The notes below the pieces were generated by a model. The model did no database searches, was not told where the DNA came from, and worked only from the letters and a program-made list of their open reading frames with translations. A DNA stretch of 64,000 nucleotides from Polaromonas sp. SP1 (GTDB taxonomy: Bacteria > Pseudomonadota > Gammaproteobacteria > Burkholderiales > Burkholderiaceae_C): assembly GCF_003711205.1 (NCBI RefSeq), contig NZ_CP031013.1, positions 1,674,001-1,738,000 on the forward strand. Direction: 5' to 3'. Below are positions 41,450-51,505 of this stretch, piece after piece. The translations under genes were made by a program, and so were the position numbers. Positions within the stretch are counted from its first letter, which is position 1, and every line of letters starts with the position of its first letter.

Positions 41450-42772
41450 ATGAACGCGCCTGACTCCCACAAAGCCCTTTCGTCCTCCAGCGACCTCGCC
41501 AGCGATGTCCCTCGGCTGATGGAGCAACTCGGATCCAAGGCAAAAGTGGCTTCAGCCCAGTTGGCGCGTGCACCAACTGCTATCAAAAACAGAGCATTGC
41601 TGAATCTGGCGGCCCTGCTGCGCCAGAACCTGGCGGCGCTGGAAACCGCCAACCAGCGCGACATTGAGCGCGCTACGGCCTCAGGCCTGGCTGGGCCGAT
41701 GCTGGACCGCCTCAAGCTCACCCCCAAAATCATTGAAACCGTGGCCGTTGGCTGCGAGCAATTGGCCGTGATGCCCGACGTGATCGGCGACATCATCGGC
41801 ATGAAAGAGCAGCCCAGCGGCATTCGCGTGGGGCAAATGCGTGTGCCCATCGGCGTGTTCGGCATGATTTACGAGAGCCGGCCCAACGTGACGATTGAAG
41901 CCGCGTCGCTGGCGATCAAGAGCGGCAACGCTTGCATCCTGCGCGGCGGCTCCGAAGCAATTGAGTCGAACAAGGCGCTGGCCGCGTTGGTGCAGCAAGC
42001 CCTGGTGGGCGCCGGCCTGCCTGCCGACGCCGTGCAACTGGTGCCGACGACTGACCGCGAAGCCGTGGGCCACCTGATCGCCATGCCGCAGTATGTGGAC
42101 GTGATCATTCCGCGCGGCGGCAAAGGCCTGATCGAGCGCATCAGCCGCGATGCCAAGGTGCCGGTCATCAAGCACCTGGACGGCAACTGCCATGTGTATG
42201 TCGACGACCCTTGCGACATCGAGATGGCGGTGAAAGTGGCCGACAACGCCAAAACGCAGAAATACAGCCCCTGCAATGCCAGCGAAGGTTTGCTGGTGGC
42301 GCGCGGGGTGGCGGCGCAGTTTCTGCCAAAAATCGGCGCGATCTACGCCGCCAAGGGCGTGGAAATGCGCTGCGACGCCGAATCGCAAGCCATCCTGGCG
42401 GCCGTCAAAGGCGCCAACCTCAAGGCCGCGACCGAGCAGGACTGGTACGAGGAATACCTGGCGCCCATCATCAGCATCAAGGTGGTGGCCGGCATTGACG
42501 AAGCAATCGCCCACATCAACCAGTATTCCAGCCACCACACCGACGCCATCCTCACGCGCGACCACATCAACGCCCAGCGATTTTTGCGCGAGGTGGATTC
42601 GGCCAGCGTCATGGTGAATGCGAGCACCCGCTTCGCTGACGGCTTCGAGTTTGGGCTGGGCGCCGAAATCGGCATCAGCACGGACAAATTCCACGCACGC
42701 GGGCCGGTCGGCATTGAGGGGCTGACGTCCCTTAAATATGTGGTGCTGGGGCAGGGCGAAGTGCGCTCCTGA
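41450..42772 (+). CDS. proA: Gamma-glutamyl phosphate reductase
   Basis: NADPH-dependent reduction of glutamyl phosphate to glutamate semialdehyde for proline synthesis. It has 440 residues of the aldehyde dehydrogenase fold. The catalytic cysteine is in [13 protein letters not shown]. The pattern [23 protein letters not shown] is diagnostic. Residues about 31-48 ([18 protein letters not shown]) are encoded by a repeat A copy. proB is not adjacent. Confidence 0.96.
41541..41593 (+). repeat. Dispersed repeat A copy inside proA
   Basis: Forward form: CAAAAGTGGCTTCAGCCC, a GC-rich middle, ACTGCTATCAAAAACAGAGC. It matches the intergenic copies at 37617 and 53346 and keeps the frame open. Confidence 0.75.
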
Positions 42773-42868
42773 AGGCATGCCGAGCTGAGAAGCCGGCCCA
42801 CGGATTTTTGGATGACCTACGTGGGCGTTACCCCTTGTAACCCCAGTATCTTGTCCCAATATCCCCAA

Positions 42869-43131
42869 GGGTGTATCCGCCACTCAAAGGGCACGCGAAA
42901 GGGGGCTATGCGGCTCAGGGCAAGGCGCCGTGAGTGCCGTGTAGCCTGCTACACAAACGAGCGGCAACGCAGCACTGGGGCGCATAGCCCCCTTTCCCTT
43001 CGGGTTGGCCCCAGAGGGGGTGTCTGCTTTGTCGCACGGCTTGCCAATAGGCATACTATTGGCGGCGCCGCGCTTCGCGCATCCATCCCCCTCTGGGGCC
43101 AACGCGTACCCTTTGAGTGGGGGATACACCC
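42869..43131. repeat. 263-bp closed multi-branch fold-back element
   Basis: The outer arms 42869-42897 and 43103-43131 pair at 27 of 29 positions. Directly inside are arm 2 (42898-42912 with 42981-42995, 15/15) and arm 3 (43005-43020 with 43087-43102, 16/16), separated only by CCC-TTC-GGG (42996-43004), itself a tiny hairpin. No base is left unpaired at the junction. Arm 2 is capped by GTGTAG-CCTG-CTACAC (42939-42954); arm 3 by GCCAATAG-GCATA-CTATTGGC (43043-43063). It occupies most of the 418-base proA-gshA gap. No credible gene and no clear target-site duplication are seen. It may be a MITE-like element, a terminator or a structured RNA. Confidence 0.85.
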
Positions 43132-43190
43132 TAGAATTCGGTCAGATATAACCGAAGCAAATAACAGATTCCCTCATCGAAAGTGGCCGA

Positions 43191-44486
43191 ATGGTTCCGC
43201 ACCTCATCACCGCCCTGAACGGCCCCATCAACGAACTCGAACAACGCGTCCTGGACTCCACACCGGCGATTGAGCGCTGGTTCCGGCTGGAGTGGATGGA
43301 GCACACGCCGCCTTTTTACAGCTCGGTCGACATCCGCAACGCCGGCTTCAAGCTGGCGCCCGTCGATACCAACCTCTACCCCGGCGGCTGGAACAACCTG
43401 ACGCCCGAGATGCTGCCGCTGGCGGTGCAGGCCGCCATGGCCGCGATTGAAAAGATCTGCCCCGAGGCGCGCAACCTGCTGGTCGTGCCCGAGAACCACA
43501 CGCGCAACAGCTTTTACCTGTCGAATGTGCTGCAGCTCAAGCGCATCTTTCACCAGGCCGGCCTCAATGTGCGCTTCGGCTCGCTCAGCTCCGACATCAA
43601 GGAGCCGACCACGCTGAACCTGCCGACCGGCGAGACCATCACCATCGAGCCGCTGATCCGCACCGACCGGCGCCTGGGGCTCAAAGACTTCGACCCCTGC
43701 ACCATCCTGCTGAACAACGACCTGTCGGCCGGCATCCCCGGCATCCTGGAAGACATCAACGAGCAATACCTGCTGCCGCCGCTGCACGCGGGCTGGTCGG
43801 TGCGCCGCAAGTCGCACCACTTCAAGGCCTATGAAGAAATCTCCAAGCGCTTCGGCAAGCTGCTGGGCATTGACCCGTGGCTCATCAACCCGATGTTTGC
43901 GCAGTGCGGCGAAGTCAACTTTGCCGAGAACACCGGCATGGAATGCCTGACGACGAATGTCGATGCGCTGCTGACCAAGATCAAGCGCAAGTACAAGGAA
44001 TACGGCATCAACGAAAAGCCGTTTGTCGTCGTCAAGGCCGACAACGGCACCTACGGCATGGGCATCATGACGGTGCGCGACGTCAAAGACCTGGACGTCC
44101 TGAACCGCAAGACCAAAAACAAGATGAGCACGACCAAAGACGGCCAGGCGCTGTCGGAAGTGATCATCCAGGAAGGCGTGCTGACCAACGAACGCGTGAA
44201 CGACGCGGTGGCCGAGCCCGTGGTCTACATGATGGACCGCTATGTGGTGGGCGGCTTTTACCGCGTGCATGCCGAGCGCGGTGTGGACGAAAACCTCAAC
44301 GCGCCCGGCGCCAGCTTTGTGCCGCTGGCCTTTGCCGACAGCGGCCGCCTGCCGCAGCCCGGCGAAAAGCCCGGCTCCAGCAGCCCCAACCGCTTCTATA
44401 TGTATGGCGTGATCGCCCGGCTGGCGATGCTGGCGGCGAGCTACGAGCTGGAAGCGACCGACCCGGACGCCGAGGTGTACGACTAA
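43191..44486 (+). CDS. gshA: Glutamate-cysteine ligase, proteobacterial ATP-grasp-like type
   Basis: First enzyme of glutathione synthesis. The 431-residue sequence belongs to the Thiobacillus ferrooxidans-type family, not the E. coli type: RLEWMEHTPPFYSSVDIRNA, APVDTNLYPGGWNNL, VKADNGTYGMGIMTV and YMMDRYVVGGFYRVHAERG are present. The ATG at 43191 follows GAAAGTGG. The start lies 60 bases after the fold-back element; TATAAC at 43147-43152 is a possible -10. gshB is in the same direction, after kup and benE. Confidence 0.94.
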   Translation: MVPHLITALNGPINELEQRVLDSTPAIERWFRLEWMEHTPPFYSSVDIRNAGFKLAPVDTNLYPGGWNNLTPEMLPLAVQAAMAAIEKICPEARNLLVVPENHTRNSFYLSNVLQLKRIFHQAGLNVRFGSLSSDIKEPTTLNLPTGETITIEPLIRTDRRLGLKDFDPCTILLNNDLSAGIPGILEDINEQYLLPPLHAGWSVRRKSHHFKAYEEISKRFGKLLGIDPWLINPMFAQCGEVNFAENTGMECLTTNVDALLTKIKRKYKEYGINEKPFVVVKADNGTYGMGIMTVRDVKDLDVLNRKTKNKMSTTKDGQALSEVIIQEGVLTNERVNDAVAEPVVYMMDRYVVGGFYRVHAERGVDENLNAPGASFVPLAFADSGRLPQPGEKPGSSSPNRFYMYGVIARLAMLAASYELEATDPDAEVYD

Positions 44487-50017: not shown

Positions 50018-51505
50018 TCAGTCTGTTTCCTGCTTGTCGTTGTGTGGGTTGCCGGGCGCGGCGGGAACGGGCACGCGAAGCTGCCACGCCGCCACCATGG
50101 CCAGCACGCACAGCGCGGCCAGCATCAGGAAGGCTTCGTTGAAAGCCGCCAGCCGCGCCGGGCTGCTGGTGGCGTTGGCCAGTGAGTCGCCATGCGCGGC
50201 CAGCCGCCATTCCAGCACGATGCCGCACAGGCTCACGCCGATGGCGCCGCCCAGCATGCGCAAAAAATTGATGGCGCTTGCGCCTTGCGACAGCAAATGT
50301 TCATGCAGCGGCCGCAGTGAGCCGAGGTTGAGCGAAGGCAGGATAAAACCCAGCCCGATGCGGCCCAGCGTGGCCCACATCACCAGCAGCCACAGGCCCG
50401 AGGCCAGGCTCACCGTGAGCATCAGCGCGAACGACGCCGCCAGCAGGGCCAGGCCGATGCTGACGAGCAGCCAGGTCGGGTGTTTGTCCGCCAGCCGGCC
50501 CACACCGGCAATCGTGGCCGCCAGCACCAGGCCCGCGGGCAACAGGATGGTGCCGACATGCGAGGCGGAAAGATTCAGGCCCAGCTGCAGGTACACCGGC
50601 AAGAGGTAGGTAGAACCAAATAACGCCGTGCCGTAGATAAACGCCACGATGCTGCCCATGGCAAAGGGCCGGTAGCCGAAGAGCGCCAGGTTCATCAGCG
50701 GCGCGCCACCCGTAGCGGCCAGGCGGCGCTGCCACCAGACAAAAGCCGCCAGCGCCGCCAGTGCCGCGCCCAGCAGGGCGAAGGAATGTGCGCGCCCTGC
50801 GCCATGCAGCTCGACCATGCCGTTGAGCAGGCACAGCGTGCCCACCGCGCCCAGCAGCAGGCCGCGCCAGTCGATCATGGCGCCCTGGCGGTTCGCCGCC
50901 ACGCCGCCCGGTGCGGTGTCGGGCACATAGCGGTAAGCCATCCACAGCGACACCAGGCACAGCGGCACCACCATGAAAAAAATCGAACGCCAGCCGAACA
51001 GGTCGACCAGGATGCCGCCCACGCTGGGGCCCAGTGCCGGCGCCAGCACCACGCCCATGCCGAAGAGGCCGCTGGCGCGCCCCTGCTCGTGCGGCCCGAA
51101 GGCCCGCATGATGATGATCGCGGGAATCGGCTGCACCACGCCGGCCGCCAGGCCCTCGGCCACACGCGCGCCCAGCACCAGGCCGAAGCTGTTGGCCAGG
51201 CCGCCGACGATGCCGCCGGCCATCAGCAGCAGCATGGTGCCCACATAGGTGCGGCGGTAGCCGTAGCGCGACAGCAGCCAGGGCGTGGTCAGCATGGACA
51301 CCGTCATGGCCACCATGAAGCCCGAGCTCACCCATTGGGCGCGCTCCTGCCCCAGCGTGAAGTGGTGGCTCATGTCGGGGATCGCCACGTTCACGATGGT
51401 CGACGACATGATGGACGCCATCGTGCCGATCATCACGGCGAGCAGCAGCAGCCAGCGGTAACGCGGGCCGTGGCGTGCCTGGAGGCCGGCGAGGGAGGCG
51501 GACAT
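50018..51505 (-). CDS. MFS drug-efflux transporter, DHA2 (EmrB/QacA) type
   Basis: A 495-residue transporter with about fourteen membrane segments. Motif C of antiporters is seen as GVVLAPALGPSVGGILVD and motif A-like loops are present (LSRYGYRRTYVG). It likely exports toxic compounds by proton antiport; no EmrA partner is adjacent. It is flanked by the tautomerase gene upstream (17 bases) and the amidotransferase gene downstream (one base) on the same strand. Confidence 0.9.
   Translation of the reverse strand: MSASLAGLQARHGPRYRWLLLLAVMIGTMASIMSSTIVNVAIPDMSHHFTLGQERAQWVSSGFMVAMTVSMLTTPWLLSRYGYRRTYVGTMLLLMAGGIVGGLANSFGLVLGARVAEGLAAGVVQPIPAIIIMRAFGPHEQGRASGLFGMGVVLAPALGPSVGGILVDLFGWRSIFFMVVPLCLVSLWMAYRYVPDTAPGGVAANRQGAMIDWRGLLLGAVGTLCLLNGMVELHGAGRAHSFALLGAALAALAAFVWWQRRLAATGGAPLMNLALFGYRPFAMGSIVAFIYGTALFGSTYLLPVYLQLGLNLSASHVGTILLPAGLVLAATIAGVGRLADKHPTWLLVSIGLALLAASFALMLTVSLASGLWLLVMWATLGRIGLGFILPSLNLGSLRPLHEHLLSQGASAINFLRMLGGAIGVSLCGIVLEWRLAAHGDSLANATSSPARLAAFNEAFLMLAALCVLAMVAAWQLRVPVPAAPGNPHNDKQETD

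Follow-up and report, generated by a model that had tools for sequence, protein, structure and literature searches.

REP and REPIN palindromes, linked to RAYT transposases, are short mobile DNA hairpins that are mostly intergenic. REPs measure 20–40 bp in the available part of one account (PMC3733652); the element described here, unlike these, carries ~100-nt hairpins in 265 bp with terminal repeats and a DDE-type duplication, and an assignment as a REP element was rejected on the size of the unit. A closer parallel is offered by MITEs, which, in the available text of one review (PMC10969869), are shorter than 500 bp, lack a transposase, end in terminal inverted repeats, are flanked by a target duplication, occur in many copies and share their ends with insertion sequences (ISs), all features in which the present family is alike. 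The same text describes MITE transcripts as stably folded, without a covarying interior, whereas the interior here is a fold with compensatory change, found under different ends. In Betaproteobacteria, the part of the literature on BRE that was available describes a ~90-bp GC-rich repeat, with 29 copies in Polaromonas sp. JS666 and others in Rhodoferax, Acidovorax and Delftia (Hot et al. 2011, PMC3110155); it occurs singly or in tandem, and no terminal repeats, target duplication, transposase or fold are described in that text. The portion seen of a study of Bordetella stem-loop families shows nothing comparable (PMC2267715). In a literature search that lay largely outside subscription journals and preprints, BRE was the only likely relative.

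The element lies in Polaromonas sp. SP1, within the 64,000-nucleotide stretch of contig NZ_CP031013.1 that was analysed (the window, to which all coordinates below refer), in the gap between two + strand genes, at 41450–42772 and 43191–44486, which we take from their translations to be proA and gshA. A first-pass annotation of this DNA had placed a fold-back in the same gap, and the coordinates hold. The best fold is one branched fold-back of 265 bp (42868–43132). Compared directly, the outer arms match at 27 of 29 positions (42869–42897 against the reverse complement of 43103–43131), the figure that the annotation had given and that the best fold bears out; an extra A–T pair at 42868/43132 closes the outer stem, and the terminal repeats are complementary at 28 of 30 positions over 42868–42897 and the right arm. 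On complementarity and fold, the left terminal inverted repeat is the 5' arm of the outer stem (42868–42896) and the right one its 3' arm (43104–43132). They form 27 pairs in the best fold, with mismatches at 42879/43121 and 42892/43108, and the neighbouring bases G42897 and C43103 pair into hairpins 1 and 2, respectively.

Hairpin 1 (42897–42996, + strand, ~100 nt, with the conserved core GCAAGGCGC...GCAACGC) and hairpin 2 (43004–43103, − strand, ~100 nt) have outer stems paired at 16 of 16 and 17 of 17 positions. The annotation was right that both are perfect; its counts, 15/15 and 16/16, each fall one short. Between them lies a mini-hairpin, CC-TTC-GG (42997–43003), with two pairs and a TTC loop, supported by the fold and by alignments A3 and A4 (see below), in nearly all rows of which CCCnnnGGG is kept and the loop letters vary. 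The four-way junction is left with no unpaired base, as had been noticed at the outset. All stems co-exist within this single best fold, whose energy is −186.9 kcal/mol as RNA (z −14.6) and −104.2 as DNA (z −13.1), with 0 of 200 dinucleotide shuffles as low in either case. The fold is not due to chance, given these shuffles and the homologues of the same architecture with other letters.

The two hairpins were assigned from the fold and a covariance model, R1, and hairpin 2 also from a joint alignment, A1, of 19 sequences (hairpin 1, reverse-complemented hairpin 2 and hairpins of other elements), from which R1 was built. In A1 hairpin 1 lines up with hairpin 2 once the latter is reverse-complemented; the two hairpins are therefore related and stand head to head in the element. 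Of the 29 consensus pairs, 21 change on both sides. R1 scores hairpin 1 at 75.0 bits (E 1.4e-16) and hairpin 2, on the − strand, at 90.9 bits, both being among the 19 sequences that built the model. A weak R1 match at 50141–50210 (− strand; 13.6 bits, E 0.73) was taken as chance. The element sits at a CCCTAGAAT stretch (43129–43140), ~60 bp ahead of gshA, at which no sigma-70-like promoter match was found; the copy in genome G028 (L004) likewise ends CCTAGAAT.

Comparison with relatives bears on how the element came to this gap. A probe of 370 bases from 43131 into gshA was matched in 83 of 87 genus genomes; 30 loci were returned, and of the 29 besides the window's own, 19 were anchored and aligned and 10 could not be. 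The uninterrupted site AATMTCCCTARAATTC is found in at least five relatives: G063, G061, G007, G004 and G010 read AATMTCCCTARAATTCGG in the proA–gshA gap, where the window reads AATATCCCCA-[element]-TAGAATTCGG. Further rows (e.g. G006 and G028) have the same empty site with more changes, and more distant relatives have other sequence at the gap, uninformative on insertion. The window element is, on these alignments, an insertion. Its left junction departs from the empty site by a single substitution and a single-base insertion, and the expected TA duplication of the window copy is therefore decayed; CA at 42866–42867 is its probable left copy, judging from the empty sites and the copies in genome G036. 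The right TA of the target site (43132–43133), whose T also closes the outer stem, is followed by GAATTCGG as in the empty relatives.

The window's own subfamily has GGGCC or GGGTG ends and TA targets. With eight candidates scored per genome, element matches were found in 9 of the 87 genus genomes at E <= 0.001, the window's own counted, several of them over one hairpin only. Genome G036 gave eight rows from its eight candidates, and seven full copies from it are in the set; G028, G056 and G011 have one copy each, and the G006 copy contains hairpin 2 but not hairpin 1. When homologous loci were folded with their flanks, the same architecture appeared with very different letters. In each of the seven full-length copies from G036, GGGCC...GGCCC is immediately flanked by TA at either end. 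The window's own genome carries other R1 hairpin elements, with TNA-type ends.

A search of 10 genomes with the G036 end pattern (<=3 mismatches) also returned TIR-only hairpins of ~50 bp, made up of nothing but the outer stem; three are from G036 and two from G006, at ~1476–1551 in each of L059, L062, L065, L073 and L077. In the same search G056 showed two single ends, with no partner found. A 52-bp end pair was seen in G261, and L406 is likewise an outer-stem-only hairpin. These short forms look like deletions of the inner hairpins, consistent with loss between short CG repeats.

The hairpin module itself is far more widespread. At E <= 1e-3, R1 matches 181 of 399 family genomes (83 of 141 genera), and at E <= 1e-4 it matches 115 of 349 order genomes (59 of 148 genera), with 32 family labels among the positives; the weakest of these matches may be chance. 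As 10 or 11 candidates were scored per genome, the copy numbers are floors, and scoring 150 candidates gave 144, 73 and 61 R1 matches in G151, G237 and G347. A DNA pattern for the hairpin core is found in at least 120 stretches, mainly in Acidovorax, Paracidovorax, Curvibacter, Polaromonas and a Burkholderiaceae MAG, with Variovorax, Paucibacter, Giesbergeria and Pseudorhodoferax also among the matches listed. Two JS666 contigs (L350, L361) match it too, a point of likeness to BRE as far as BRE is described in the text available; to judge from its description, BRE may be this hairpin unit. The pattern also occurs in two WRJY01 contigs (L258, L275) of a MAG labelled Desulfovibrionaceae, where mis-binning is likely and transfer possible.

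A frequent layout spans ~270 bp: terminal repeats, a hairpin, CCCnnnGGG and an inverted second hairpin. The ends vary, and the module is found under GGGCCTG, GARCSTGTTYACGATCT, GGGCTCGTTAATG, GGGCGAATCGAC and GAGCCTATTTCAG. Of 19 order-level loci, 15 were long enough to be read, 11 of them measuring 267–274 bp with ends such as GGGCTCGTTAATG, GGGCGAATCGAC and GAGCCTATTTCAG, and the remaining four 195, 253, 338 and 367 bp. A single-hairpin form of 161–170 bp is the best reading in 13 of 27 loci from IS-bearing genomes. Single-hairpin elements at L010, L011, L014, L103 and L105 have ends like GGAAGCGCTGAACAAGTCC, presumably resembling an IS5 end, and ~4-bp YTAR-like flanks; those at L387 and L399 (weakly L397) have ends like GGGATCCTCTGCACGAATCA, a further end type.

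Phages gave no match to the window element or to a TNA copy, viral contigs none to two exact patterns and plasmids none to the window element; among 72,556 plasmid records, a G036 copy matched one (45% cover) and a TNA copy one. The latter, the sole plasmid record for that query, is a 373-kb Comamonas odontotermitis plasmid with three places like the TNA element (NZ_CP083452.1:53952–54223). Around 53 of 60 elements examined, those with both neighbours called, the adjacent genes are tandem in 28 cases, divergent in 13 and convergent in 12, by crude gene calls. A preference for convergent genes was accordingly dropped (12 of 53), and a preference for stop codons is not claimed: by similarly crude calls, 12 of 51 elements lie exactly in a stop, and so do 67 of 438 TNA triplets in the non-coding background (p = 0.08).

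The most common subfamily is of the TNA type. R1 gave 93 matches on 70 loci. The 63 analysed further represent each element, where possible, by its first hairpin, and exclude L090 and L107, which lie at contig ends, as well as second, antisense and weak matches. Scores of the top terminal pair in these 63 hits range from 12 to 32, in a scan that always reports such a pair. Seven of the 63 were dropped at the canonical-end step, six are GGG-type and 50 are TNA-type (49 distinct, L091 being identical to L168). Identical flanking triplets, all TNA, are present in 29 of the 50 (28 of the 49 distinct). Of the 50, 38 measure 266–268 bp, and all fall within 199–336 bp. In the complete 4.6-Mb genome G275 there are 44 forward and 46 reverse ends with <=2 mismatches, mostly paired ~270 bp apart, from which that genome would hold about 45 elements.

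A candidate partner for this subfamily came from a PF01609 search of 12 carrier genomes, in which 73 places were listed and 30 fetched. Among those 30, L149 (genome G036) was the sole IS with MITE-type ends (GAGCCTGTCTACGATCTTC / GCGCCTGTCTACGATCTTC), and it has a TAA duplication. A 75-residue piece of its transposase has matches in 78 of 399 family genomes. The best 21 transposase loci include 12 with a MITE-type end pair, one partial case (L228), one with an unrelated internal pair (L223) and seven with none, some of these at contig ends. IS ends include GAACCTGTTCAAAATCTTTT, GAACGTGTTTACGATC and GAGCCTGTTTACGATCTT, and several copies have a 3-bp TNA target duplication. The ISs are ~840–851 bp long (843–851 bp in the ten inspected). 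Seven frames from four of them were compared with family models: PF13340 was found in the three first frames and PF01609 in the four second frames, and the NCBIfam model NF033580 ('IS5 family transposase') matched all seven, with scores that clear its threshold in the four second frames but not in the three first ones. ISs of the IS1031 type duplicate TNA. In the available text on Paracoccus, the IS427 group of the IS5 family is 832–865 bp long, with two overlapping ORFs and mostly a 2-bp duplication (PMC3281130). The partner IS is alike in its length, two frames, IS5-family DDE transposase and short terminal repeats, but it and the MITEs duplicate 3-bp TNA rather than 2 bp.

Within single genomes the agreement of ends is mixed. 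In G461 an IS end, GAGCGTGTTTACGATCTCC, is identical over 19 bases to the end of the MITEs L385 and L398; IS and MITE ends agree closely in G409 and G347 and disagree, in the MITEs inspected, in G366, G237 and G465. R1 matches are present in 18 of 21 genomes with a strong transposase match and in 163 of 378 others (Fisher p 1.1e-4, ignoring phylogeny and with the cut-off, E < 1e-16, chosen after the list was seen); two of the 18 rest on weak R1 matches (G137, G252). The other three strong-IS genomes have no R1 match with 150 candidates scored, and no R1 hairpin lies inside the IS in the 12 IS loci searched. At L211 (genome G466) the end of a two-hairpin match (685–923) lies near the beginning of an IS5-family IS copy; the IS was apparently inserted next to the MITE or into its flank.

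The window's own subfamily is a different matter. No IS with the window's ends GGGTGTATCC or the subfamily's ends GGGCCTGTTCAC was found in the 30 PF01609 loci fetched of the 73 listed, nor was one for GGGCC or GGGTG ends found in these loci or, by end pattern, in the 399 family genomes. The GGGCCTGTTCAC ends occur in only two of the 399, there 270 and 52 bp apart. The window genome and G275 have copies, yet neither PF01609 nor the transposase piece finds a match in them. An IS5-family transposase is thus proposed as the mobiliser of the window's own copy by analogy with the common subfamily. Size, terminal repeats and presence or absence at orthologous sites are those of a MITE, and for the TNA subfamily so are the target duplication and the IS-shared ends. 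The annotation's guess of a MITE-like mobile element is supported by the empty sites, target duplications and multi-copy dispersion, and for the common subfamily by ends in common with IS5-family ISs. Its further guess, a protein-binding cruciform, is possible.

Whether the fold is maintained was assessed in two alignments. A3 comprises 44 elements of the TNA type (28 from G275). Pairing holds in 97.5% of its cells, against 88.6% in shuffles, and both partners have changed in 54 of 100 pairs, compared with 27.8 in shuffles (0 of 500 as high) and 12–20 with partners slid. In A4, with 11 full copies from five genomes and 105 consensus pairs, 96.4% of cells are paired (87.0% in shuffles) and 45 of the 105 pairs have changed on both sides (15.1 in shuffles, 0 of 500 as high); with partners slid, pairing falls to 36.7–42.5% and two-sided changes to 7–15. 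Such compensatory changes agree with the first-pass suggestion that the structure is maintained. That annotation had regarded absence from other loci and genomes together with a lack of covariation, or else incompatible stems, as speaking against its reading; what was found is homologues at other loci and in other genomes, covariation in both alignments and stems that co-exist. As a whole, the first reading is partly supported.

If pairing were kept in a one-strand RNA, G-U pairs should be common and A-C pairs rare. Leaving out mostly-G-U (fixed) pairs, one in A3, two in A4 and one in 6S RNA, the G-U:A-C counts are 58:54 in A3 and 19:15 in A4, whereas 29 6S RNAs from the same family (of 30 loci retrieved, one was excluded because of its length) give 98:6. 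With the fixed pairs included, the counts become 94:54, 38:15 and 119:6, respectively. The 16 A3 rows from outside G275 give 17:17. The majority of off-pair types are singletons, and dead copies decaying at random would yield equal G-U and A-C whatever kept the fold; for pair types seen in at least two rows, the counts are 11:12 in A3, 2:1 in A4 and 18:0 in 6S RNA. By region, A3 has 15:18 in the terminal stem and 18:22 in hairpin 2, and G-U is in excess in hairpin 1 (61:14, or 25:14 without the fixed wobble). The fixed G-U pairs are strand-specific features and a reservation on the DNA-level reading. Overall, the counts favour pairing kept as DNA, and it looks to be kept either by selection on a DNA fold or by arm-to-arm copying. 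The share of transversions among two-sided changes was dropped as an argument against RNA, the 6S control being not clearly different (transition/transversion pair types 19/15 in 6S RNA, 36/37 in A3 and 25/28 in A4).

The reading we consider likely is a non-autonomous MITE that an IS5-family transposase mobilises in trans and whose fold is kept and acts as DNA; more generally, the family consists of MITEs with a conserved branched fold that is probably kept as DNA. That the fold is kept follows from two-sided changes that preserve pairing while the letters turn over. The transposase of a separate IS5-family IS would recognise the ends and move the element, and the IS may later be lost, with the MITE copies remaining. 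The fold could act when the DNA is single-stranded at a replication fork, or as an extruded cruciform, and its simplest role would be to hold the two ends together or to offer a protein a hairpin. It may even be that these elements represent a class of mobile DNA in which the folded DNA shape is itself the selected feature, a branched module carried across much of Burkholderiales under changing ends, with its pairing kept as DNA and the fold needed for mobilisation or for a host function; this wider proposal is possible, and we put it forward tentatively.

It is doubtful, if well worth considering, that the arms are unselected and have been kept alike by template switching (quasi-palindrome correction) in an ordinary MITE. 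Arm copying predicts the absence of a clear strand bias that is seen among changing pairs, the ~50-bp TIR-only hairpins make it plausible that the DNA folds in vivo, and in hairpin 1 conservation averages 0.88 in unpaired and paired columns alike. However, template switching should erase internal loops, and 17 of the 28 unpaired columns of hairpin 1 are at least 0.95 conserved; the length of 266–268 bp in 38 of 50 TNA-type copies also argues against it. The annotation had raised a structured transcript as an alternative. In this view transposition would have spread an RNA, be it an sRNA, an attenuator or a bidirectional terminator, that is kept for its transcript; it is disfavoured and in our view improbable. 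Changing pairs accept A-C as readily as G-U, which 6S RNA does not, Rfam gave no match near threshold over 42700–43300 (best E 0.38, far below gathering scores), and the crude neighbour calls (n = 53) show no preference for convergent genes, despite a very stable RNA fold, the fixed G-U pairs of the + strand (one in A3, two in A4), two terminator-like matches inside the element (mean 0.5 in shuffles) and the bprJ region of Bordetella pertussis, which in the text available is transcribed and contains a BRE repeat (PMC3110155).

A different kind of enzyme, of the HUH/Y1 or tyrosine-recombinase type, might read folded single-stranded DNA, with the IS5-like ends secondary. The occurrence of one hairpin module under several different ends and the persistence of copies in genomes without a detected PF01609 transposase would fit such a mover, yet the TNA duplications and the ends shared with an IS of the same genome fit the expectation for a DDE transposase, and we regard this explanation as improbable. 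As for a one-off local foldback without relatives, the exact 263-bp sequence is indeed single-copy in its genome, but homologues of the same architecture in many genomes refute it, and it deserves practically no credence.

For the preferred reading of a MITE whose fold is kept as DNA, several consequences follow. If the fold is needed for movement, there would be IS5-family systems with a DNA-structure step, of which the compared literature, in the parts available, has no example. The family offers an example of compensatory change that may reflect DNA, not RNA, and the comparison of G-U with A-C, set beside an RNA control, is a strand test that could be used on further repeats classed as 'structured'. 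A family of chromosomal mobile elements that extends across the order now has a structural definition, and its common subfamily a probable mobilising transposase.
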